From: Parafrankia irregularis | GTDB lineage: Bacteria; Actinomycetota; Actinomycetes; Frankiales; Frankiaceae | DNA length: 64,000 nucleotides | Assembly (NCBI RefSeq): GCF_001536285.1 | Contig: NZ_FAOZ01000002.1 | Location: 124,001-188,000 of the forward strand | Direction: 5' to 3' | In this document: positions 3,899 to 45,811 of the stretch, one piece after another | How positions within the stretch are numbered: position 1 is the stretch's first letter | Layout of the letters: each line of letters begins with the position of its first letter | Position numbers and translations under genes: made by a program | Notes under the pieces: generated by a model | Database searches by the model: none | Told to the model about the DNA's origin: nothing | The model's input: the letters and a program-made list of their open reading frames with translations, nothing else

Positions 3899-4558
3899 TC
3901 AGGGCTGGATGTTCTGCGGGCTGTTGAGGTAGGCGAGCACGGCGAGCACCCGTCGGTGACCGCTGTCGCTGGGCGGCAGGCCCAGCTTCAGGAACACGTT
4001 GCCGATGTGCTTGTGGACCGCACGCTCGGTCACGACGAGCGTCCTGGCGATGGTGCTGTTGTCGTGGCCTTCCGCCATCAGCTCCAGCACCTCGCGCTCA
4101 CGCGGGGTGAGCGAGTCGATCGGCGTGTCGCGGCGGCGGGTCATCAGCTCGGTCACCACCTCCGGGTCCAGGGCGCTGCCGCCCGCAGCGACGCGTTCCA
4201 GCGCGTCGAGGAACTCGTCGACCCGCCCGACACGGTCCTTGAGCAGGTAGCCGACCCCGCTCGCCCCGCCGCCCAGCAGTTCGGCGGCGTAGGACCCCTC
4301 GACGTACTGCGAGAGGACCAGGACCGGCAGGCCCGGGATCGTCTCCCGCGCCTCGCGGGCAGCGCGCAGGCCCTCGTCGCGGAAGTGCGGTGGCATCCGC
4401 ACGTCCAGTACGGCGATGTCCGGCCTGTATCGAAGCAGAGCGGGCAGGATCTCGGGCCCGCTGCCGGCGACGGCCACAACCTCGTGCCCGGCCGAGTTCA
4501 GCAGCAGGACGAGCCCCTCTCTCAGCAGGGCGTTGTCCTCGGCGATCACCACACGCAC
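3899..4558 (-). CDS. NarL/LuxR-family response regulator
   Basis: 219 residues. The receiver domain (1-120) has the acidic pair E7/D8, phospho-acceptor D52 (in LDVRMPP), S83 and conserved K107 (YLLKDR). A LuxR-type HTH follows (about 150-210, DSLTPREREVLELMAEGHDNSTIA). It is encoded directly after the kinase with a 13-bp overlap, so the two are co-translated partners. As a phosphorylated dimer it should bind a short dyad, and the duplicated GGTGTAGC palindrome is the obvious candidate. That would make the system autoregulated and give it control of the MMPL transporter. Confidence 0.93.
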   Translation of the reverse strand: MRVVIAEDNALLREGLVLLLNSAGHEVVAVAGSGPEILPALLRYRPDIAVLDVRMPPHFRDEGLRAAREARETIPGLPVLVLSQYVEGSYAAELLGGGASGVGYLLKDRVGRVDEFLDALERVAAGGSALDPEVVTELMTRRRDTPIDSLTPREREVLELMAEGHDNSTIARTLVVTERAVHKHIGNVFLKLGLPPSDSGHRRVLAVLAYLNSPQNIQP

Positions 4559-28062: not shown

Positions 28063-28689
28063 GTGCAGAGGCATACAACGGGGCGGCGGGGGAAACCTCC
28101 CCGCTTCTCCATAGCCGTGCCGGACAGCTGGTTCGTGCTGGATACCCAGGCCGCCCGCAGCACGGCGGCGATCGCCCGGATGGCCACGGAGCGGGCGCGT
28201 GGCCATCCACTGCTGGCAGGGCGGGAACCCACCGTCGCCCGGATTCTGCATGACGCCGCGACCCGCGCCGAAAGTGCCGGGGCGGCCTACTGCGCCGTCA
28301 TGATCGAGGACGTCCGCGGCATCGGCCTGTCCGCCAGTGTCATGGTCTGCGTCCTGCCGACCGACCGGCACATACCCGACCTCCCTCGGCAGGAACGCCC
28401 TGCCTCCGACGACGCCGAGGCGGGGGAGCGTCGGCGCTGGCGTCGCGTCGGCGCCGTGGACCTGCCGGCTGTCGGCCTGGCCACCCGGACCGTGCGGCTC
28501 GAGCCGCAGCGGTCGACGGACGGCGCGGAGATCTCCCACCTGGTGATGCGGACGACGGTCCCGGTCCCGGGGCATGACCGGATAGCGGTGATCGCCTGCG
28601 CCAGTCCGAACACGGCCCTGGCGGTGGCGCTGCACGACCTGTTCGACGCCGTGACCGCGACGTTCACCTTCGTCCACGAGATGCCGTGA
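28063..28689 (+). CDS. Conserved-looking hypothetical protein near the type VII module
   Basis: 208 residues from a GTG at 28063. It begins RFSIAVPDSWFVLDTQAARS, the usual first strand and helix of small PsbP/Mog1-like domains. It continues with alternating strands and helices (AYCAVMIEDVRGIGLSASVM, ISHLVMRTTVPVPGHDRIAV) and ends in a helix (ALAVALHDLFDAVTATFTFV). No signal peptide. The fold is a guess from this pattern. Proteins of this kind often sit beside WXG100/FtsK loci in actinobacteria, as here, which is the only functional hint. Converges with rpsD. Confidence 0.6.
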   Translation: MQRHTTGRRGKPPRFSIAVPDSWFVLDTQAARSTAAIARMATERARGHPLLAGREPTVARILHDAATRAESAGAAYCAVMIEDVRGIGLSASVMVCVLPTDRHIPDLPRQERPASDDAEAGERRRWRRVGAVDLPAVGLATRTVRLEPQRSTDGAEISHLVMRTTVPVPGHDRIAVIACASPNTALAVALHDLFDAVTATFTFVHEMP

Positions 28690-28704
28690 CCGCGATGCGG
28701 TTTG

Positions 28705-29310
28705 TCAGCGTGCGTAGTACTCGACGACGAGCTGTTCGTCGCAGACCACCGGGATCTCCGGCCGGCTTGGTCGCCGGCTGAGCACGGCCAGCAGCGCGCC
28801 GCGGTCGACGTCGAGGTATGCGGGCGGCGGAGCCCCGGTCGGCTGGGTCTCGGCCACGATCCGGAATGGCGCCATGGTGCGGCTGCGGGTGGTGACGGTG
28901 ATGACATCGCCGGGTTGGACGCGGAAACCGGGACGGTCCACCCGACCTCCGTTCACCTGGATGTGCCGGTGGCTGACGAACTGGCGAGCCTGGTAGATCG
29001 TCTTGGCGAAGCCGGCTCGCAGGACGACCGCGTCCAGGCGGGTCTCCAGATCTTCGATGAGCAGGTGGCCGGTGCGTCCCGTCCCACGATCAGCCTCGTC
29101 GAACGCCCGCCGGAGCTGCTTCTCGCTGATGTGGTACTGGAAGCGCAGCCGCTGCTTCTCCCGCAGCCGCTCCTTGTAGGGCGACATCGTCTTGCGCCCG
29201 CGGCCGTGCGGGCCGGGCGGGTAGGGCCGGTTCTCGAAGTAGCGGGCCGCCTTGTCGGTCAGCGGCATCCCGATGCTGCGGCTGAGCTTGGCGACGGGCT
29301 TGTGGCGCAC
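28705..29310 (-). CDS. rpsD: 30S ribosomal protein S4
   Basis: 201 residues, full length. The start is the GTG at 29310, set by AAGGAGG 6 nt upstream. The N-terminal domain lacks the Cys4 zinc motif, so this is the zinc-independent form also used by Streptomyces. The S4 RNA-binding domain spans about 90-155 (TRLDAVVLRAGFAKTIYQAR, HIQVNGG) and the tail ends CDEQLVVEYYAR as usual. S4 nucleates small-subunit assembly. It is away from other ribosomal genes; whether it is the only copy or a paralogue cannot be told from this window. Two iron-box sequences lie in its promoter region. Confidence 0.95.
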   Translation of the reverse strand: MRHKPVAKLSRSIGMPLTDKAARYFENRPYPPGPHGRGRKTMSPYKERLREKQRLRFQYHISEKQLRRAFDEADRGTGRTGHLLIEDLETRLDAVVLRAGFAKTIYQARQFVSHRHIQVNGGRVDRPGFRVQPGDVITVTTRSRTMAPFRIVAETQPTGAPPPAYLDVDRGALLAVLSRRPSRPEIPVVCDEQLVVEYYAR

Positions 29311-29321
29311 CGCATCCTCCT

Positions 29322-29356
29322 TTAGGTTAGGTGTCCCTTAAATTAGGCAAACCTAA
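29322..29356. promoter_or_regulatory. Two overlapping DtxR/IdeR-type iron boxes between rpsD and a divergent gene
   Basis: Compared with the 19-bp IdeR/DtxR consensus TTAGGTTAGGCTAACCTAA, the box at 29338-29356 matches at 16 of 19 positions and the one at 29322-29340 at 14 of 19, with its left ten bases exact. They share three bases. The pair lies between rpsD (start 29310) and the His-rich gene (start 29362), so iron-dependent repression of one or both is predicted. A DtxR-type regulator with intact metal ligands is encoded at 45.1 kb. Confidence 0.75.
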
Positions 29357-29361
29357 CCATA

Positions 29362-30180
29362 GTGGATCGACTGGTGGTGGAGCAGGTGGCGGACGGCACG
29401 ATTGATCGGCCCGGGGCAACGCACGGGACGTGGGGCGAGGGGCCTGCGGACGTCCTCGCGGCGACCAGGTGGGCAGCGCGCGAGCTGATTCGCGTCGCGC
29501 CGTACGGCAGCCTTGTCCTGTGGGGTGGGCGCCTGGTGCATGGCCTGCGCTTCGCGGTCATCGCCTCCGCGGGGATGTCCACGCTCGGGCCGGGGGCATA
29601 CGACCTGGGCCCCGGCGGGGCCGCACCCACGGACGCCATCCCCGCTGATCTCGTCATGGCCGATCCGGCGCCGGTCGGGGCCACTCACGCCGGCCCTGTT
29701 CCGGCGGAACCGAACCTGTTCGAGCAGTTCGCGGCCGTCCCGGCGACCCGCCTCGTGATGCTGGCCCCGTTCTCGGTCGGACGTCTGCTGGGCACCGAGG
29801 ACCAGGCCTGCCGGTTCCAGATCTGCGGGCCGGTGTCAGCGGACGGCTGTGAATGGGTCTCGGTCGCCCTGGCCGGATGGGTCGCGCCGGTGCCAGGCGG
29901 GGCCGTTTCGGAGCTCGCGCAGGCGTTCACCGATCGGCACCCGACACCGGACCTGCTCGATCTCGGCAGCGTGTGGATGCTCCTGGAGCTCGATCTCGCC
30001 GAGGCCACGGTTCGGACGAGGTCCAGGTGCATCCAGCTGGACACCGCAGACGTCGTGGCCCTGCTGAACGATCACCTGCATCAGCACGAGCACGAGCACG
30101 ATCTAGCCCATGCCCGTGACCCGGACGGCGATCACACCGCAGGCCGCGAACACGATGCGGGACGAGGCCCGCAGGCCTGA
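29362..30180 (+). CDS. Hypothetical protein with His-rich tail, predicted iron-regulated
   Basis: 272 residues from the GTG at 29362, only 5 bp after the second iron box, so the transcript is probably leaderless or nearly so. Two folded parts are visible: one near 35-75 (ARELIRVAPYGSLVLWGGRL) and one near 130-245 (CEWVSVALAGWVAPVPGG, PDLLDLGSVWMLLELDLAEA). The second part recalls DUF2470-type split-barrel proteins linked to haem or iron, but this match is weak. The tail is rich in His, Asp and Glu (DHLHQHEHEHDLAHARDP), a likely metal-binding stretch. Iron box, divergent position and metal-like tail together suggest a role in iron limitation. Confidence 0.6.
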   Translation: MDRLVVEQVADGTIDRPGATHGTWGEGPADVLAATRWAARELIRVAPYGSLVLWGGRLVHGLRFAVIASAGMSTLGPGAYDLGPGGAAPTDAIPADLVMADPAPVGATHAGPVPAEPNLFEQFAAVPATRLVMLAPFSVGRLLGTEDQACRFQICGPVSADGCEWVSVALAGWVAPVPGGAVSELAQAFTDRHPTPDLLDLGSVWMLLELDLAEATVRTRSRCIQLDTADVVALLNDHLHQHEHEHDLAHARDPDGDHTAGREHDAGRGPQA

Positions 30181-30280
30181 CATGAGGCTTCCCGCGGGCG
30201 CGGCGGCCTGAGCGCCGGTGCCGTGGGGGCCGGTGGCGGGACGCTGGGCCGTGCCGTCCCGCCACCGCTCGAACAACGGG

Positions 30281-30568
30281 TCAGCCCGCTGCCTGGATGT
30301 CGATCTGGATCTCGGCGAGCCGAACCCGCAGTCGGTCCAGCTGGGTGTGCAGATCGGTCAGGGTTCGTTCGTAGGCGGGCCAGATCGAGGTACGGAACTC
30401 CGCTGCTGTGCGGCCGTCCCAGTTCTCCGGTTCCAGGAGGACCCGGGCGGTGGCGCGAAGCCCGTTGAAGTGCGTCAGAAGTGGGCCGTTGATGAGGCCG
30501 GCGAGCTCGTCGACCGCAGCCGACGCCTGTGGGGTGGCCCGAACGGTCAGACCTGATCCTGTCGTCAT
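30281..30568 (-). CDS. WXG100-family (ESAT-6-like) protein
   Basis: 95 residues forming two helices around a WDG turn (ENWDGRTAAEF), the W-x-G signature of Esx secretion substrates. Length and hairpin layout are typical. It lies 70 bp after the other WXG100 gene and both follow the FtsK-like ATPase, so they probably form the heterodimeric type VII substrate pair. A YxxxD/E export signal of the mycobacterial kind is not evident at the C-terminus (QIDIQAAG). Confidence 0.88.
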   Translation of the reverse strand: MTTGSGLTVRATPQASAAVDELAGLINGPLLTHFNGLRATARVLLEPENWDGRTAAEFRTSIWPAYERTLTDLHTQLDRLRVRLAEIQIDIQAAG

Positions 30569-30638
30569 CGCATTCTCCTGAAGCTGAGTCTCTTCCGGGG
30601 CAGTGGAAGCCGTGTCGGGGCGGCGTGCCGCCCCGGCG

Positions 30639-30908
30639 TCAGCTGCCGGCCAGTGCGGTGCGTTGGTTGACCTCGGTCACGGTGCGAGCGAGGTCTGCCA
30701 GGTTCGTCTGCAGCGCTGACAGGGTGTTCTGCACCTCGGGCCAGATCTGGGTGCGGAACAGCTGGGCTTTCGGCCCCTCCCAGTTCGCCGGGTCCGCGAG
30801 TGCGTTCCCGCGGGCGACGAGACTCGCTGTCGTGCTCTGAAGATCGGTGAGCTGATGGCTCATCTGACCGGCGGCACTCTGGGCCGCAGGAGTGGTAACC
30901 GTGCGCAT
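30639..30908 (-). CDS. WXG100-family (ESAT-6-like) protein, partner
   Basis: 89 residues: helix, WEG turn (ANWEGPKAQLF), helix. Both WXG100 proteins share the following FRT-x-IWP segment, so they are related duplicates. Secreted as a folded four-helix pair by type VII systems in known cases. Encoded 154 bp downstream of the FtsK/SpoIIIE ATPase on the same strand. Confidence 0.88.
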   Translation of the reverse strand: MRTVTTPAAQSAAGQMSHQLTDLQSTTASLVARGNALADPANWEGPKAQLFRTQIWPEVQNTLSALQTNLADLARTVTEVNQRTALAGS

Positions 30909-31062
30909 GGGTGGTCCGTCCGTCCGGGGGCAGGGGTCGGAGGCACCGGCGGCGAGATCCAGCCTGTCAGTAGCCGGGAGGTGAACCAGCCGACAGGGGG
31001 ATGCTACCGTCCGTACCGATGACGTCTAGATATGAGGCATTTTCTTAAGGTGTGGACATCAT

Positions 31063-34000
31063 TTATCCTTCAAGTAGTGAGTTGACTACCTGGATTGGCG
31101 TGATTTCGCCGCGCCGGATCAGGAGCCCTCTTCCCGGTGGGCCCGGGCCGCACAGCGCTCGAGGCAGCCGTACGCCGAACAGATCGCCATCCGCGGGGCC
31201 GCTCGGGGTGAGCAGCACTCCGCACCGGGAACGACGGGCGTCCACCACGAGGCCGCGGAACTGGTTGACCAGATCCTCGGTGGTACCGGCGGCGACAAGT
31301 CGACTCTCGTCGGCAAGGTCGTCACGCAGCAGGGCCGCGAGCTCCTCGCCGAGCGGAGTGCCGGTGACGGATTCGACGTCGTCGACGAGAAAGACCGTCT
31401 GGGAACCGGCCGGCGCTGCCTCCCCGCACCGCAGCTGATCGGCGTCGGAGACGTCCACCACGATCTGCGTGGCCGCTTCTCCGGCGAGTTCCCGCAGCGG
31501 CGACGGCCGTGGGCTGACGACAACGGTGCGGCAGCCATGTGTGTGTAGCTCACCCGCGATGGTGAGCAGCGCGGTGCTGCGACCGGATCGGGGCGGCCCG
31601 GCGATCACGAAGCCTGGACCATCCATGGCGAGATCGATGCTGATGGGCGCCAGCTCGTCACCCCCGACCGCCAGAATGATCGGCAGTCGTTGCCCGTCGA
31701 CAGCGCGATCGGTCTCGGAGCTGCTCAGGGTCCGCAGGGTCCGTCGACCGACCCGGGCAGGTAGGCCGTCGACCCGAAACGGGCGAGGCTCGACCTGTGT
31801 GGCGGGCTCGGCCTGTATGGCCGCTTGCGGCCCTGGCGAACCCGCGTCGGACCGTGTACCGCCGAGTTCTGGCCGCTGGCGCGCCGGCCCTGCGCCGGCG
31901 GCTGCCAGCCGGCGCAGCATGCCAGCCTGCGCTGCGCCGGATGGATCGTCGGTCAGCAAGGCCACCTGGACTTCGACCGGACCGTCTGACTCGGCCCAGA
32001 CACGCTCCGTGGATCCGTTGGACCCGCCGATCAGATACCCCCTTCCGGGCGGAAGGGCTTCGGGAACGCGCAGGCCGGCCAGCCCGGCGAGGCCGTAGTC
32101 GGAGCGTTCCGCCATGCGCAGCACCAGGCGCTGATCGATGGTCGACGCCAGCTGCCCGGTGAGTCCGCGCCGGTCAGCGGTGACCACGATTCTCAACCCG
32201 ACCGCCGGGCCGTCCCGGGCAAGTGCCAGGAGTCGGTCTATGGCCGCCGCGCCGTCCAGGTTCTCGAAGGAGGCGAGAAAGCCTTCGTACCCGTCGAGGA
32301 GAAGGAGGAGATAGGGCAGGGCGGAGGATGCTGCCCCGTGGGTGCTCCGAGCCTGCTGTGCCTGCCGCGCTTCGGCCAGGTCGGCGAAGCCACCCTGGGA
32401 GAGAAGGATCTGCCGGCGCGCCACCTCCGCTGCCAGCCGAGCCAGCAGACGGTGCACCCGCTCGGTTTCGGCAACGGTGACAACGGCTCCGGTGTGGGGC
32501 AGGTCCGCGACCGGCGCCAGACTGTTGTTCCCGCAGTCCAGGCCGTAGATGTGGACATCCGCTGGCGACGCGGCGAGCGAGGCCGATCCGGCGACGGTCC
32601 GCAACACCGTCGACCGCCCGGACCGGGGCGCGCCGAGGACCAGCAGGTGAGATCCGCCTTCGAGATCGAGCGCGAGGGTGGGCTGGGCCTGCGCCCGGCA
32701 CAGGTCGGCGAGCCCGAGTGGCACGCGCAGGCCGCTGTGCTTCGGCGTGCCCACCTCGGGCGTGGCACCCTCCGGCGTGCCATCGTCCGGCGCGCCGATC
32801 GGGGGCAGGGCGGCGATGGTCGTGCGGACGGGCAGCGGTGCGAGCCACGGCCGGCGCGGGCTCGGAAGGCGGCAGACCCGGGCTGCCTCCTGCAGAGCGT
32901 CGGCCAGCAGGCGCAGGTCCGTCGGCTCGTCCGCCGCAGGCGGGTTCAGTCGCACCTGGCGTGACGAGCGCGCCTCGCTTTCGGCCCGGATGACCGACGC
33001 CAGCACCTCTCCGGCGGGCGGCCAGGGCAGCTCGATGACGAGGGGCTCCGCCGAAGCGGAAGCCGAAGCCGAAGGCGAGGCGGGCGGTGCATCGTCGCGT
33101 CGGCGTGCGCCTCCGATCCGGGCGGTCTGGAAGACAACCGGAGGATCCTGCCCGACTCGAAGAATCGCGCGGCCCGGCGCCGACACAGGAAGACGCGCCG
33201 CGTCCGGAAGCCCCAGAACATCCGTGCTCTCGGTCGGATCAGTGACCCGCAGCGCGATCCGAAGGTTCGTGTTGGCCAGGATCTCCGGCGAGACGACGCC
33301 GGCTGGGCGCTGGGTGGCGAGCACCAGGTGCATGCCCAGCGAGCGCCCTCGACCCGCAAGCCCCACCAGGCCGGTGACGAAGTCCGGGAGCTCACGGACG
33401 AGCGCGGCGAACTCGTCCACGACGACGACGAGCCGCGGCAACGGATCCGGCTGCATCCCGCCTGGTACATCGGACTCGGTCGACCCGGCGGGCCGGGCTC
33501 GCCGGGTACGCACGGCGCGTCGGTACTCGTCGATGTCCTTGCAACCAGCGGCTGCGAACAGCGACTCCCGCCGCCGCAGCTCAGCGCCAAGGGAGTCCAG
33601 CGCGCGCTGGACCAGGTGCGGATCGAGATCGGTGACGAGGCCGACGGTGTGCGGCAGCCGGGCGCAGTCACCGAAGGCGCTTCCACCCTTGTAGTCGATC
33701 AGGACGAAGGTCATCTCGTCGGGGCGGTTGTGGATGGCCAGCGAGGCGACCAGGGACTGGAGAAGCTCGGACTTCCCCGCCCCCGTGGTCCCGGCGACGA
33801 GGGCGTGTGGTCCGTCGCGGCTCAGGTCGAGGTTGACCGCTCCGGTCGGGCCCACGCCAATCGGAAACGTCGCCGCGCCGCCAGCCGTGATCCAGCGTGG
33901 GGCGAGCACCCGTGAGCTCGGTGGATCCAGCTCCAGAAGATCCAGCAGCCGGATGTCCGTCGGCAGCCGCGTCCCGCCCGACGCCTGGGGCCCGGGATCA

Positions 34001-36024
34001 CGTAGCGGCGCCAACGCACGGGCCAACCGCTCGCACCATCGCCCAGCCGCGGTGGTGGACTCGGAAGCGGCGGTTGTGGTCGCCGAGAGCCTTGTGGAGA
34101 TCGATTCTCTGGGATCTCCGCGGGGCCGGTCGGCTGTGGAGGGCGTGTCCGCGCCACCGACGAGATCCGGCTGGATGCGGTCGATGTCCGGGTGGCCCTG
34201 CTGCCGCAACCGGACCCCGGCCGGGCCTTCGTCCACGACTGCCACGCACTCGGGCGGGAGGAGCCGTGGGTCGTGTTCGAGGCAGACCACGTGTATGCCG
34301 ACGCCAGGCCCGGACCGCAGTACCGGGATCAGCGCGGCGCGCAGCGTAGCCGCGCCTTCGACGACAGCCAGGACCGCGGGAGCGCCCCCGGTCCGGCTGC
34401 CGGCGCCGCGATCGGCCAGGCGCAGCCGTGCTTCGGTCAGCGCCACCAGCTCATCGACCAGACGCGCCCGGCTCGGCCCGTCGGCGCCGACGAGCACGGA
34501 GCCCGGCGGACCGCCGGCTGGGCGGCAGTGCGGCAGCCACCGCGTCCACTCCCAGCTCGGCGCCGCGGCGGGGTCGACGGCAAGGTGGATCGCCAGATCT
34601 CGTGGGCTGTGAAGCGCCGCGGCCTGCGAAACGAGCCAGAAGCCGATCTTTCGGGCGAAACCTCTCGCGCCGACGACGCCGAGGACGCCGATGTCGGGCA
34701 GTGGGACCGTGACCGGCACGGCCCGCAACATCCACCGGGTTGTCCGGCGGTGGTCCGGCGCGGCCGGGTCTTCCAGCCGGACTCGGCTCGGTACGTCTCC
34801 CGTGCCCACACGAAGGTGCAGGAAGTCGGGATCTTCCGGGCGACGCTCCCACAGGCCACGCCGAGGCCCCACCGCACGCAGCATCACCGCAGCGGCGTCG
34901 GGGTGGGACGCGCGCCGGACGGCGGACTCGTGCTGCAGCGCGGCTGCGGCATCCCGTTCGATGTCGGCTCTGGAGCGCTGGTACTCGGCGAGCGCGCGAC
35001 GATGGTCGCGTGTGTCGCGGCGTTTGCCCGCCAGATGGGATCCCAACAGGGACAGCGGTGCCAGCGCCGCGAACAGCAGGAGGTGGGCGGCGTGCAGGAC
35101 AAGTGCCATGCCACCGGCGGCGACCGCCGGCAGGAGCGCTGCCAGTACCGGGGGCGGCGCGGCCGGCGGTGCCGTGGGCAGTGCGGGCAGGCGGTAGCGG
35201 CTGTCGCCGGCCCAACGCACCAGACGTGGCTCCCGGCTGATCTCAAGACCTGATCCGGCATGCTCCGGCCGAAGCAGTGCGTCTGGCGGACTGGGCGTGG
35301 TGAGCAGCAGAGATGTGGCTCCGACCTGCAACGCCAGCCCGGCCAGGTCACTCGCGTGCCGTAGCGCGGAGAAGGTGACGGGGCCGGTGCGCTGGCAACC
35401 GTCGATCCACACCTCGGACTGAACCCTGGGTGTGACGACGCAGGAACCGTCGACCTCGATCCGCAGGGTCAGCGCCTGTGGCGGTGCTGTCTGTTCGGGA
35501 AGAACGATGCCACCGAGGGGATCCGCGCCGACACCGTACTCGCCGGCGGCAAGCTGGTACACGGCTCCCGAGCCCGGGCCGCCGGTGACCCGGAGCTCGA
35601 CCAGGCCCAGGGCTTCTCTGCGCTGGCCGAGTGGCGTCCCGAGGCCCACCAGCGATCCGTCGCGCAGTGGGGATGCGCCGAGCCGCAGCGCCGCGTCGAT
35701 CTCGACGCCGTCGATCTGGACGGATGGCGTGGGTACCTGACGGTGCTGCGACGTGCCCGGATGGCGCTCCCGGCCGCCGAGGGGAGACCCGCGTCCGCGG
35801 GGAGGGCGCCCGCGGTTGCTGGGAGGGTGCCGCCCGGAGCCCGGGTTGTCGCTGCCACCCGGCCGCGACGCCGCCAACGCGTCGGCGATCGCGCGCATCG
35901 GTGTCTCGGGGGCGGCACGGATGAGAACGGTCCGGACGTCGGCCGACTGCGCGGGCGCCTCGCCGTCGGCCGCCCGCGGATGCCCGCTCTCGGGTGGCAG
36001 CGCCACGGTGCAGGTGATCCACAT
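31063..36024 (-). CDS. Type VII secretion FtsK/SpoIIIE ATPase with FHA-like N-terminus (EssC/EccC type)
   Basis: About 1653 residues (ATG at 36024; a GTG three codons earlier is possible). Order: Arg/Pro-rich lead, FHA-like domain (about 140-235, GAVYQLAAGEYGVGADPLGG), two TM helices (about 290-335), then three FtsK-like ATPase domains. Domain 1 near 745 has a proper Walker A (GTTGAGKS) and Walker B (LVVVVDEFAA). Domains 2 (near 1131, GAPRSGRST) and 3 (near 1475, GPPRSGRST) have Arg where Walker A has Lys, so they probably bind substrate signals more than they hydrolyse ATP. It is the motor recruiting WXG100 substrates, whose genes follow directly. No EccB, EccD, EccE or mycosin gene lies in this window. 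Confidence 0.92.
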   Translation of the reverse strand: MWITCTVALPPESGHPRAADGEAPAQSADVRTVLIRAAPETPMRAIADALAASRPGGSDNPGSGRHPPSNRGRPPRGRGSPLGGRERHPGTSQHRQVPTPSVQIDGVEIDAALRLGASPLRDGSLVGLGTPLGQRREALGLVELRVTGGPGSGAVYQLAAGEYGVGADPLGGIVLPEQTAPPQALTLRIEVDGSCVVTPRVQSEVWIDGCQRTGPVTFSALRHASDLAGLALQVGATSLLLTTPSPPDALLRPEHAGSGLEISREPRLVRWAGDSRYRLPALPTAPPAAPPPVLAALLPAVAAGGMALVLHAAHLLLFAALAPLSLLGSHLAGKRRDTRDHRRALAEYQRSRADIERDAAAALQHESAVRRASHPDAAAVMLRAVGPRRGLWERRPEDPDFLHLRVGTGDVPSRVRLEDPAAPDHRRTTRWMLRAVPVTVPLPDIGVLGVVGARGFARKIGFWLVSQAAALHSPRDLAIHLAVDPAAAPSWEWTRWLPHCRPAGGPPGSVLVGADGPSRARLVDELVALTEARLRLADRGAGSRTGGAPAVLAVVEGAATLRAALIPVLRSGPGVGIHVVCLEHDPRLLPPECVAVVDEGPAGVRLRQQGHPDIDRIQPDLVGGADTPSTADRPRGDPRESISTRLSATTTAASESTTAAGRWCERLARALAPLRDPGPQASGGTRLPTDIRLLDLLELDPPSSRVLAPRWITAGGAATFPIGVGPTGAVNLDLSRDGPHALVAGTTGAGKSELLQSLVASLAIHNRPDEMTFVLIDYKGGSAFGDCARLPHTVGLVTDLDPHLVQRALDSLGAELRRRESLFAAAGCKDIDEYRRAVRTRRARPAGSTESDVPGGMQPDPLPRLVVVVDEFAALVRELPDFVTGLVGLAGRGRSLGMHLVLATQRPAGVVSPEILANTNLRIALRVTDPTESTDVLGLPDAARLPVSAPGRAILRVGQDPPVVFQTARIGGARRRDDAPPASPSASASASAEPLVIELPWPPAGEVLASVIRAESEARSSRQVRLNPPAADEPTDLRLLADALQEAARVCRLPSPRRPWLAPLPVRTTIAALPPIGAPDDGTPEGATPEVGTPKHSGLRVPLGLADLCRAQAQPTLALDLEGGSHLLVLGAPRSGRSTVLRTVAGSASLAASPADVHIYGLDCGNNSLAPVADLPHTGAVVTVAETERVHRLLARLAAEVARRQILLSQGGFADLAEARQAQQARSTHGAASSALPYLLLLLDGYEGFLASFENLDGAAAIDRLLALARDGPAVGLRIVVTADRRGLTGQLASTIDQRLVLRMAERSDYGLAGLAGLRVPEALPPGRGYLIGGSNGSTERVWAESDGPVEVQVALLTDDPSGAAQAGMLRRLAAAGAGPARQRPELGGTRSDAGSPGPQAAIQAEPATQVEPRPFRVDGLPARVGRRTLRTLSSSETDRAVDGQRLPIILAVGGDELAPISIDLAMDGPGFVIAGPPRSGRSTALLTIAGELHTHGCRTVVVSPRPSPLRELAGEAATQIVVDVSDADQLRCGEAAPAGSQTVFLVDDVESVTGTPLGEELAALLRDDLADESRLVAAGTTEDLVNQFRGLVVDARRSRCGVLLTPSGPADGDLFGVRLPRALCGPGPPGRGLLIRRGEITPIQVVNSLLEG

Positions 36025-36073
36025 GGCCGGCACGATACCGGCGGAGAGCGACTGCTCTCTCTGTGTTACCTAT

Positions 36074-44717: not shown

Positions 44718-45124
44718 ACCCTTGAGTGTAGGTACCTGCCCGCGTCGCGCCGCCCTGACGGTGTGGGTGCCGTGGTGGCTGCGTGACCGCAGGCGAGATC
44801 ATGCTCGCGGCCGTCTGGGCTCCTGCCCGGCGGTGCCGCCGTGTTCCTGGAAGCCGGTCCTTGATGTCGTTTTTGTGCGCGCCCCGGGCTGGGCCGAGGT
44901 GCGGGCGTGGCGCGCCGGCGACGCTCGTCCTCCAGCAAGGCCCAATCCCCACTTTGGGTACCCGGTCGGGTACCCTCGGTGGGTGGGGAGCGGTTCGGCG
45001 TAGTGACGACGGGGCGGCTTCCGGGGCGGCTTGGCCATACCACAATCCGACACCAGGACGCAGAGGAATGTGGCTCCTCCCGAGGGGCGTTGCAGCGTAC
45101 TCTGGTTGCGGACGAAGGAGACCG
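44718..45124. promoter_or_regulatory. Divergent region of DUF3039 and DtxR genes with twin GGGTACCC palindromes
   Basis: 407 bases. GGGTACCC occurs twice, at 44956-44963 and 44968-44975, separated by GGTC; the block as a whole is GGGTACCCGGTCGGGTACCC (44956-44975). It lies 150 bp upstream of the DtxR start. The even 12-bp spacing suggests a cooperative regulator site. It does not match the iron-box consensus, so autoregulation by DtxR is not implied. No gene is seen here. Confidence 0.5.
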
Positions 45125-45811
45125 GTGACTGGACTGATTGACAGTACCGAGATGTACCTCCGGACCCTGTACGAGCTACGGGAGGAGGGCATCACCCCGC
45201 TGCGTGCCCGGCTGGTCGAACGGCTGCATGTGAGTGCGCCGGCGGCGAGTGAGTCGACTGCGCGGCTGGCGAGCGAGGGCCTGGTGGCCCTGGCTGATGA
45301 CCGGACGGTGCAGTTCACGGAGAAGGGCCTGGTCAGGGCCACGGCGGTGATGCGTAAGCATCGTCTCGCCGAGCTACTCCTGACCAAGATCATTGGCCTG
45401 GACTGGGCGCTGGTTCACAACGAGGCATGTCGCTGGGAGCACGTGATCTCGGACGAGGTCGAGGCCCGGCTGACGGTTCTTCTGGGTGATCCGAAGCGTT
45501 GCCCCTTCGGCAACGAGATCCCGGCTCCGTTGGAGACCGCCGAGCCGCCCGTCGCGGCCCCGGTGAGCCTGCTCACCTCCGCTGAGCGGAATGTCAGTGG
45601 CCCCAAGGCCGTGACGGTGAGCTGGATCTCCGAACGCCTCCAGACCGACGAGAACGCGATGCGCACCCTGCGCGACGCATCGGTCGTGCCAGGCGCGAAG
45701 ATCTCGCTGAACGCTCGTGGTGACAGGCTCTACATCGCGAAGCCGGACGGTGACGCCGACGAATCGGAGATCAGCCGGGGCATGGCGTCCCTGGTCTACG
45801 TCGATCACTGA
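45125..45811 (+). CDS. DtxR/IdeR-family iron-dependent repressor
   Basis: 228 residues from the GTG at 45125, with AAGGAGA just upstream. Residue numbering equals that of corynebacterial DtxR: primary-site ligands M10, C102, E105, H106 (ACRWEH) and ancillary-site H79, E83, H98 are all present. Domains: winged HTH (1-73), dimerisation and metal domain (74-140), C-terminal SH3/FeoA-like domain (about 150-228, VSWISERLQTDENAMRTLRD, VVPGAKISLNARGDRLYIAK). With Fe(II) it should repress genes carrying TTAGGTTAG-type boxes, such as the pair at 29322-29356. Cys at position 102 favours Fe over Mn specificity. Confidence 0.95.
   Translation: MTGLIDSTEMYLRTLYELREEGITPLRARLVERLHVSAPAASESTARLASEGLVALADDRTVQFTEKGLVRATAVMRKHRLAELLLTKIIGLDWALVHNEACRWEHVISDEVEARLTVLLGDPKRCPFGNEIPAPLETAEPPVAAPVSLLTSAERNVSGPKAVTVSWISERLQTDENAMRTLRDASVVPGAKISLNARGDRLYIAKPDGDADESEISRGMASLVYVDH

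Follow-up and report, generated by a model that had tools for sequence, protein, structure and literature searches.

The genome of Parafrankia irregularis has two genes for ribosomal protein S4, and the one outside the alpha operon (rpsD2) has a pair of overlapping iron boxes directly upstream. The S4 that it encodes lacks the four cysteines of the alpha-operon copy. We think it probable that the short stretch between rpsD2 and a divergent gene, whose product has a predicted HugZ-like fold, is a DtxR/IdeR operator that both genes share, and that the cysteine-free S4 replaces an iron-using S4 when iron is low. In support of this, a similar box accompanies the cysteine-free S4 gene across many families of actinobacteria.

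Two types of S4 and a pair of iron boxes

By "the window" we mean the whole stretch of DNA that was analysed (64 kb). These are the features that we refer to:

28705..29310, minus strand: rpsD2, second ribosomal protein S4, C- type, 201 amino acids, GTG start (NF003717, E 1.9e-65; TIGR01017 above cut-off; Pfam S4 and Ribosomal_S4)
29316..29321, minus strand: Shine-Dalgarno sequence AGGAGG of rpsD2, read from the sequence; it abuts box 1 directly
29322..29340, no strand assigned: iron box 1, TTAGGTTAGGTGTCCCTTA, 14/19 to the DtxR/IdeR consensus; the paired layout is also found in Parafrankia relatives
29338..29356, no strand assigned: iron box 2, TTAAATTAGGCAAACCTAA, 16/19; in the class sample, the corresponding gene has a site of 15-18/19 in 44 of 44 dual-S4 genomes
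29386..30180, plus strand: divergent gene, 264 amino acids from the likely GTG start, with a predicted FMN-binding split-barrel fold, HugZ-like (start by alignment; fold from a model)
45122..45811 (start approximate), plus strand: iron-dependent repressor of the DtxR/IdeR family, which presumably reads the boxes (IdeR 1fx7 in the PDB, E 5.3e-55)

There are two S4 genes in the genome. The alpha-operon copy (G000:C2:364497-365123) has the gene order rpsM-rpsK-rpsD-rpoA around it (read by eye from the translations), rpsD2 lies outside this operon, and the two proteins are 43% identical. An earlier note on this DNA had raised the question of a second rpsD, and the answer is that the cysteine-bearing copy is in the alpha operon and that the window holds the second copy.

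The N-terminus of the alpha-operon S4 has the pattern CxxC-x13-CxxxxC (C9, C12, C26, and C31), and all four cysteines align with a solved S4 chain (from its entry codes, we take this to be the Thermus thermophilus protein). When rpsD2 is aligned to the alpha-operon S4, it shows none of the four cysteines and lacks 8 residues ahead of RPYPPG, in gaps of 2 and 6. The N-terminal region of rpsD2 is free of cysteine altogether, and its sole cysteine is residue 190. With neither the four cysteines nor the seven-residue insert, rpsD2 belongs to the C-(IV) type of S4. (We write C+ for the cysteine-bearing form and C- for forms such as rpsD2.) Passages of a 2023 paper (PMC10450194) describe the uS4 of T. 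thermophilus as coordinating an Fe4S4 cluster, with CxxC-CxxxxC as the pattern of the C+ form. The closest solved C+ chain that we saw is the one from Thermus and not an actinobacterial one, and we infer that the actinobacterial C+ S4 holds such a cluster as well.

With GTG 29386 as the start of the divergent gene, the gap between the two start codons is 75 bases. Within it are two 19-mers that resemble TTAGGTTAGGCTAACCTAA, which we take to be the DtxR/IdeR consensus and which we used for the scans. The earlier note had claimed two overlapping iron boxes here, and we confirm them, at 29322-29340 (14/19) and at 29338-29356 (16/19). They share 3 bases, and an extra 14/19 match at 29343 is a shift in register. 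Over the whole 64 kb, the scan gave no further box of at least 14/19 outside this cluster, and a single position there reaches 13/19. Among shuffles of sequence upstream of S4, 0 of 710 reached 14/19; a further set of shuffles gave 1 of 980 at that level for single-S4 genomes and 0 of 990 for dual-S4 genomes. (A scan of 29250-29450 for sigma-70 promoters found no match, which is weakly informative in an actinobacterium with 70% GC.)

Across the 9.5-Mb genome, we found 13 strand matches at 10 places with at most three mismatches to the assumed consensus, and the reversed control gave 0. Of the nine places other than the S4 promoter, four are without a clear iron gene and five are beside genes of iron type (read by eye). 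These five neighbors are a FecB-like binding protein; a siderophore-interacting protein; a lysine N-hydroxylase with an ABC ATPase; an ABC exporter; and a non-ribosomal peptide synthetase (NRPS). Siderophore and transporter genes beside the boxes suggest a DtxR-type iron regulon in this genome, with the S4 promoter among its few strong sites. At one of the four places without a clear iron gene (L004, at C4:278918), the box precedes the gene for a small cysteine-rich protein, which is presumably DUF1540-like; the neighbors at the other three have no clear identity.

The putative reader of the boxes is encoded in the window. By the NF053665 model, it is the single DtxR-family regulator of the genome (the sole match, at 240 bits, which is below the 290-bit cut-off), and it resembles IdeR/DtxR far more than MntR. 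The earlier note had stated that a DtxR protein with all of its metal ligands is encoded here; this agrees with the alignment to IdeR, in which the metal-ligand segments are kept. Judging from its sequence, this protein presumably reads the boxes. Its recognition helix is SAPAASES, as compared to SGPTVSQT in IdeR, a difference that counts against this assignment; the boxes in the genome are nevertheless of the usual consensus.

Both rpsD2 and the divergent gene lie within a cluster that resembles a type VII secretion locus (28063-36033). It includes an FtsK/SpoIIIE-type, EccC-like protein (31063-36033), a WXG100 protein that scores below the Pfam cut-off, and a similar small partner. The type VII-like cluster is retained in four Parafrankia-type loci and two Frankia loci. 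Because the EccC and WXG100 genes point at the divergent gene, and because the window has no other box of at least 14/19, control of secretion by the boxes is not evident.

The box at cysteine-free S4 genes of other actinobacteria

For a class sample, we searched 393 genomes, took the 142 whose best match was a C-(IV)-like S4 of at least 181 bits, and tested each of these for a C+ copy. (The sample was drawn from the matches listed; lower matches, such as those of the mycobacterial alpha-operon type, were left out.) In all 44 genomes with both forms, which we call dual-S4 genomes, a box of 15-18/19 lies before the C- copy, roughly 30-81 bases upstream of the first aligned C- codon. The C+ copies of the same 44 genomes all have the cysteine motif, and none of the 44 has a site above 13/19 in the 3.0-3.6 kb that was scanned around each.

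Of 81 Micromonosporaceae genomes, 60 carry a C- S4 gene; a C+ gene is also present in 55 of these and absent from 5. The box is present in 52 of the 55 dual-S4 genomes versus 0 of the 5 single-S4 genomes. For 50 named genomes, the corresponding counts are 38 of 39 and 3 of 11. (One of the three dual-S4 Micromonosporaceae without a box is also the case without a box among the 39.) These 50 genomes come from 58 named loci, with L042-L046 and L094-L096 left out. The former are apparently G001, G005, G004, G002, and G025, whose C+ status was tested in the class sample; the latter were counted in the Micromonosporaceae set, and the genome of L094 has no C+ match.

The sites are concentrated at S4. 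Across 55 named loci (568 kb), every site of at least 15/19 lies in an S4 promoter, and 46 of the loci have one there. A second match of at least 13/19, at a distance of 15 or 20 bases (16 in one case), accompanies the box in 52 of 99 dual-S4 genomes, a count that includes about 3 duplicates. (The class and Micromonosporaceae samples overlap by at least three genomes, G170/G460, G253/G501, and G438/G520, so the 99 dual-S4 genomes are really about 96.) We regard it as firm that the predicted box is conserved together with the C- gene in many families. The earlier note had proposed conservation in close relatives as a check on its claim, and the box is kept in them, so this check did not refute the claim.

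In one member of the Micromonosporaceae (L379, genome G471), the boxed C- S4 gene and the alpha-operon C+ S4 gene are an unusually close pair, about 2.6 kb apart.

In some genomes, the C- form is the only S4, and yet it has a box. A site of at least 14/19 was found in 25 of the 98 single-S4 genomes of the class sample: in family f13, 3 of 5 have one (at 18/19); in f18, 13 of 35 (at 16-17/19); and in f17, 9 of 25 (at 14-15/19). These boxes count against the switch that we propose below, as do the three dual-S4 Micromonosporaceae without a box; either repression is partial, or the boxes of single-S4 genomes are leftovers from C+ genes that were lost. The three f13 genomes (L022, L023, and L141, in G068, G046, and G149) have an 18/19 box on a gene that must be essential, as their only S4 is of the C- type. 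In f17, all 25 single-S4 genomes (such as L226, in G247) carry a box of 12-15/19 at a similar place, and this gradation looks like the slow decay of a former operator.

The presence of a C+ gene is associated with the box in f17 (Fisher's test, p 3e-5) and in f18 (p 0.0014), where related genomes are dependent observations. A tree of the 55 named C- S4 genes has five changes of the box and four of C+, from which only 3-4 independent pairs can be drawn, with a sign-test p of 0.5. With so few independent changes on the tree, the link between C+ and the box might still be due to shared ancestry. It appears strong by count and weak by independent events.

The divergent gene

According to the earlier note, the gene that faces rpsD2 starts at 29362 and encodes a protein with a tail rich in His and Asp. 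There is a divergent gene behind the boxes, but its start is more likely to be the GTG at 29386, where several relatives have an ATG that follows a GGAGG-like stretch. The emphasis on the tail was misplaced: it is found in 2 of 8 aligned sequences, namely the window protein and a relative that is 97% identical to it. No Pfam or NCBIfam family matches the divergent protein over its cut-off (the best was PF13883, with E 0.28, in one homologue).

An AlphaFold2 model built from 8 sequences has a mean pLDDT of 65.6, with about 71-94 in the core. In comparisons with Foldseek and VIA-align, the core groups with FMN-binding split barrels, and many of the best matches are heme-binding. These split-barrel matches include 2arz (whose function is unknown), the glutamyl-tRNA reductase-binding protein, heme-bound At3g03890, MSMEG_6519, HugZ (3gas), ChuZ, and HutZ. 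The VIA Z scores are 13.2, 13.2, and 11.8 for HugZ, ChuZ, and HutZ, and 14.6 for heme-bound At3g03890 (6m0a). The likeness to HugZ, ChuZ, and HutZ is one of predicted fold: identity to them is only 6-12%, and the divergent protein has no Pfam match over the cut-off. We predict that the divergent protein is a HugZ-like split barrel, although the fold alone is no proof of function, and that its ligand may be heme. An enzyme that binds or opens heme would be a natural member of an iron regulon.

Homologues of the divergent gene were found in 23 of 35 Frankiaceae genomes, and all 23 have a box of 15-18/19 ahead of the gene. In these genomes, the C- S4 gene is intact in 9 and broken in 2, and there is no tblastn match at the locus in 12. 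The box precedes the divergent gene in all 14 Frankiaceae genomes that have this gene and no intact C- S4. (The scan used one locus per genome; the second fragments L385 and L405-L407 were left out.) In one of the 12 genomes without a tblastn match (L387), a reading frame beside the box keeps the N-terminal S4 segment RHKPVARL. A broken S4 gene or an N-terminal remnant lies beside an intact iron box at L387, L395, and L402 (in Frankiaceae genomes G023, G016, and G033). It appears that a spare S4 has been lost repeatedly in the Frankiaceae. As the box outlives S4, it most likely serves the divergent gene too.

Outside the Frankiaceae, we considered four boxed loci, and three of them (Actinomadura, Micromonospora, and Yinghuangia) gave no homologue of the divergent gene. 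The fourth, L068 in Hamadaea, has a weak and partial homologue (4237-4425; 35% identity over 63 residues) close to its boxed C- S4, which hints that the pairing of S4 with the divergent gene may be older than Frankia. The earlier note had treated S4 and the divergent gene as alternative targets of iron control. The pattern of conservation supports both, and not one to the exclusion of the other.

A proposed iron switch of S4 and its alternatives

The switch that we propose would work as follows. If iron is sufficient, Fe-loaded DtxR would occupy the paired boxes and both genes would be silent; ribosomes would carry the alpha-operon S4, with an iron-sulfur cluster at its four cysteines. If iron drops, DtxR would leave the boxes. 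The C- S4 would then be built into new 30S subunits, with no cluster to be used or awaited, and the HugZ-type split-barrel protein, of the heme-binding or heme-oxygenase type, may release heme iron or hold it. The steps that we predict are the binding of DtxR, derepression at low iron, and the replacement of one S4 form by the other in ribosomes. We also lean toward a broader claim: that iron sensing by DtxR/IdeR lets many actinobacteria exchange the iron-sulfur form of S4, the primary 16S-binding protein, for a paralog without a cluster.

This arrangement is similar to that of the Zur-controlled C- paralogs of S14, L28, L31, L33, and others in Bacillus, Streptomyces, and Mycobacterium. There, too, the C+ gene is in an operon and the C- gene is outside of it, under the control of a metal-loaded repressor. 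But those genes have a Zur site and the metal is zinc, whereas at S4 we find a DtxR/IdeR iron box, and the cofactor is probably an iron-sulfur cluster. The iron box, the siderophore neighbors, and the family of the regulator are like those of the DmdR1, IdeR, and DtxR regulons of actinobacteria, as described in passages of PMC12161575. Ribosomal proteins were not found among known iron regulons in the searched text of PMC12161575 or of other papers on DtxR or on iron in Streptomyces, and we found no earlier report of an iron-controlled S4 in the open-access PMC literature.

It is also conceivable, if rather unlikely, that DtxR controls both genes and that the C- S4 is not there to spare the cluster, but changes iron-starved ribosomes in some other way, for example in their accuracy or in how well they withstand oxidative damage to the cluster. 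Mutations in S4 do alter accuracy and stress resistance (as reported in parts of PMC12186496), and the box would be conserved in the same way. On the other hand, the two forms of S4 are defined by the N-terminal metal motif, and the regulator is of the iron type. Since a metal motif separates the forms and an iron regulator controls them, sparing of the cluster is the simplest link.

A switch that responds to another metal seems improbable. Such a switch could respond to zinc, in the known manner of Zur, or to manganese, with a relative of DtxR as its reader. We rejected Zur control of rpsD2-type genes: upstream of the C- S4 of 44 + 55 dual-S4 genomes, a 15-mer that we take to be the Zur consensus matched no better than it did in shuffles. 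Pairs of C+ and C- S4 were described in 2009, by authors that we take to be Chen, Roberts, and Luthey-Schulten. In passages of that paper (PMC3087516), the table of pairs includes Frankia sp. EAN1pec and two Salinispora species, the C+ S4 is called zinc-binding, and Zur is said to control zinc-free paralogs of S14, S18, L28, L31, L33, and others in bacteria. These C+/C-(IV) pairs are of the same kind as ours, and the view taken of them is one of zinc and Zur. Yet the search of 26 genomes for Zur sites that PMC3087516 describes yielded some for other ribosomal paralogs of Salinispora but not one for S4. (The main text of PMC3087516, as far as it was available, never uses the word "iron".) An iron box would account for the absence of Zur sites at S4, and it suits an iron-sulfur cofactor. 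As to manganese as well as zinc, the S4 boxes match the sites beside iron-uptake genes, and the regulator is far closer to IdeR/DtxR than to MntR.

Could the boxes serve the divergent heme-type gene alone, with rpsD2 as a bystander beside an iron promoter? The 14 Frankiaceae genomes that keep the box at the divergent gene without an intact C- S4 would fit this idea, as would the weak partial homologue close to the boxed S4 in Hamadaea. But in Actinomadura, Micromonospora, and Yinghuangia, the box is at S4 and the homologue was not found, and in the window, box 1 abuts the Shine-Dalgarno sequence of rpsD2. We consider it very improbable that rpsD2 is a bystander. Finally, although box 1 is only 14/19, the idea that the boxes arose by chance in an AT-rich promoter is refuted by their conservation across many families, and it also conflicts with the 13 matches versus 0 for the control in the genome and with the lack of other sites of at least 15/19 in 568 kb.

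We tried Myxococcota as a second phylum, and genomes with two S4 matches are rare there (4 of 112). At two of these four loci (L375 and L378, which are related), a Fur-like site of 14/19 to an assumed consensus lies about 186-189 bases upstream of the start of the C- S4. Possibly, the same iron rule operates in Myxococcota with another regulator.

If the proposed iron switch of S4 is correct, then the ribosome would be an iron reservoir under the direct control of the iron regulon, as the iron counterpart of the zinc switch that is run by Zur. This would answer a question that had been open since 2009, of why there are pairs of S4 paralogs without a Zur site. It would also give a possible physiological reason for S4 to hold an iron-sulfur cluster, and it would directly tie the composition of the ribosome to the supply of iron. 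For the Frankiaceae, whose life in nodules and soil is iron-demanding because of nitrogenase, it would add a gene for a heme-protein-like product to the iron regulon.
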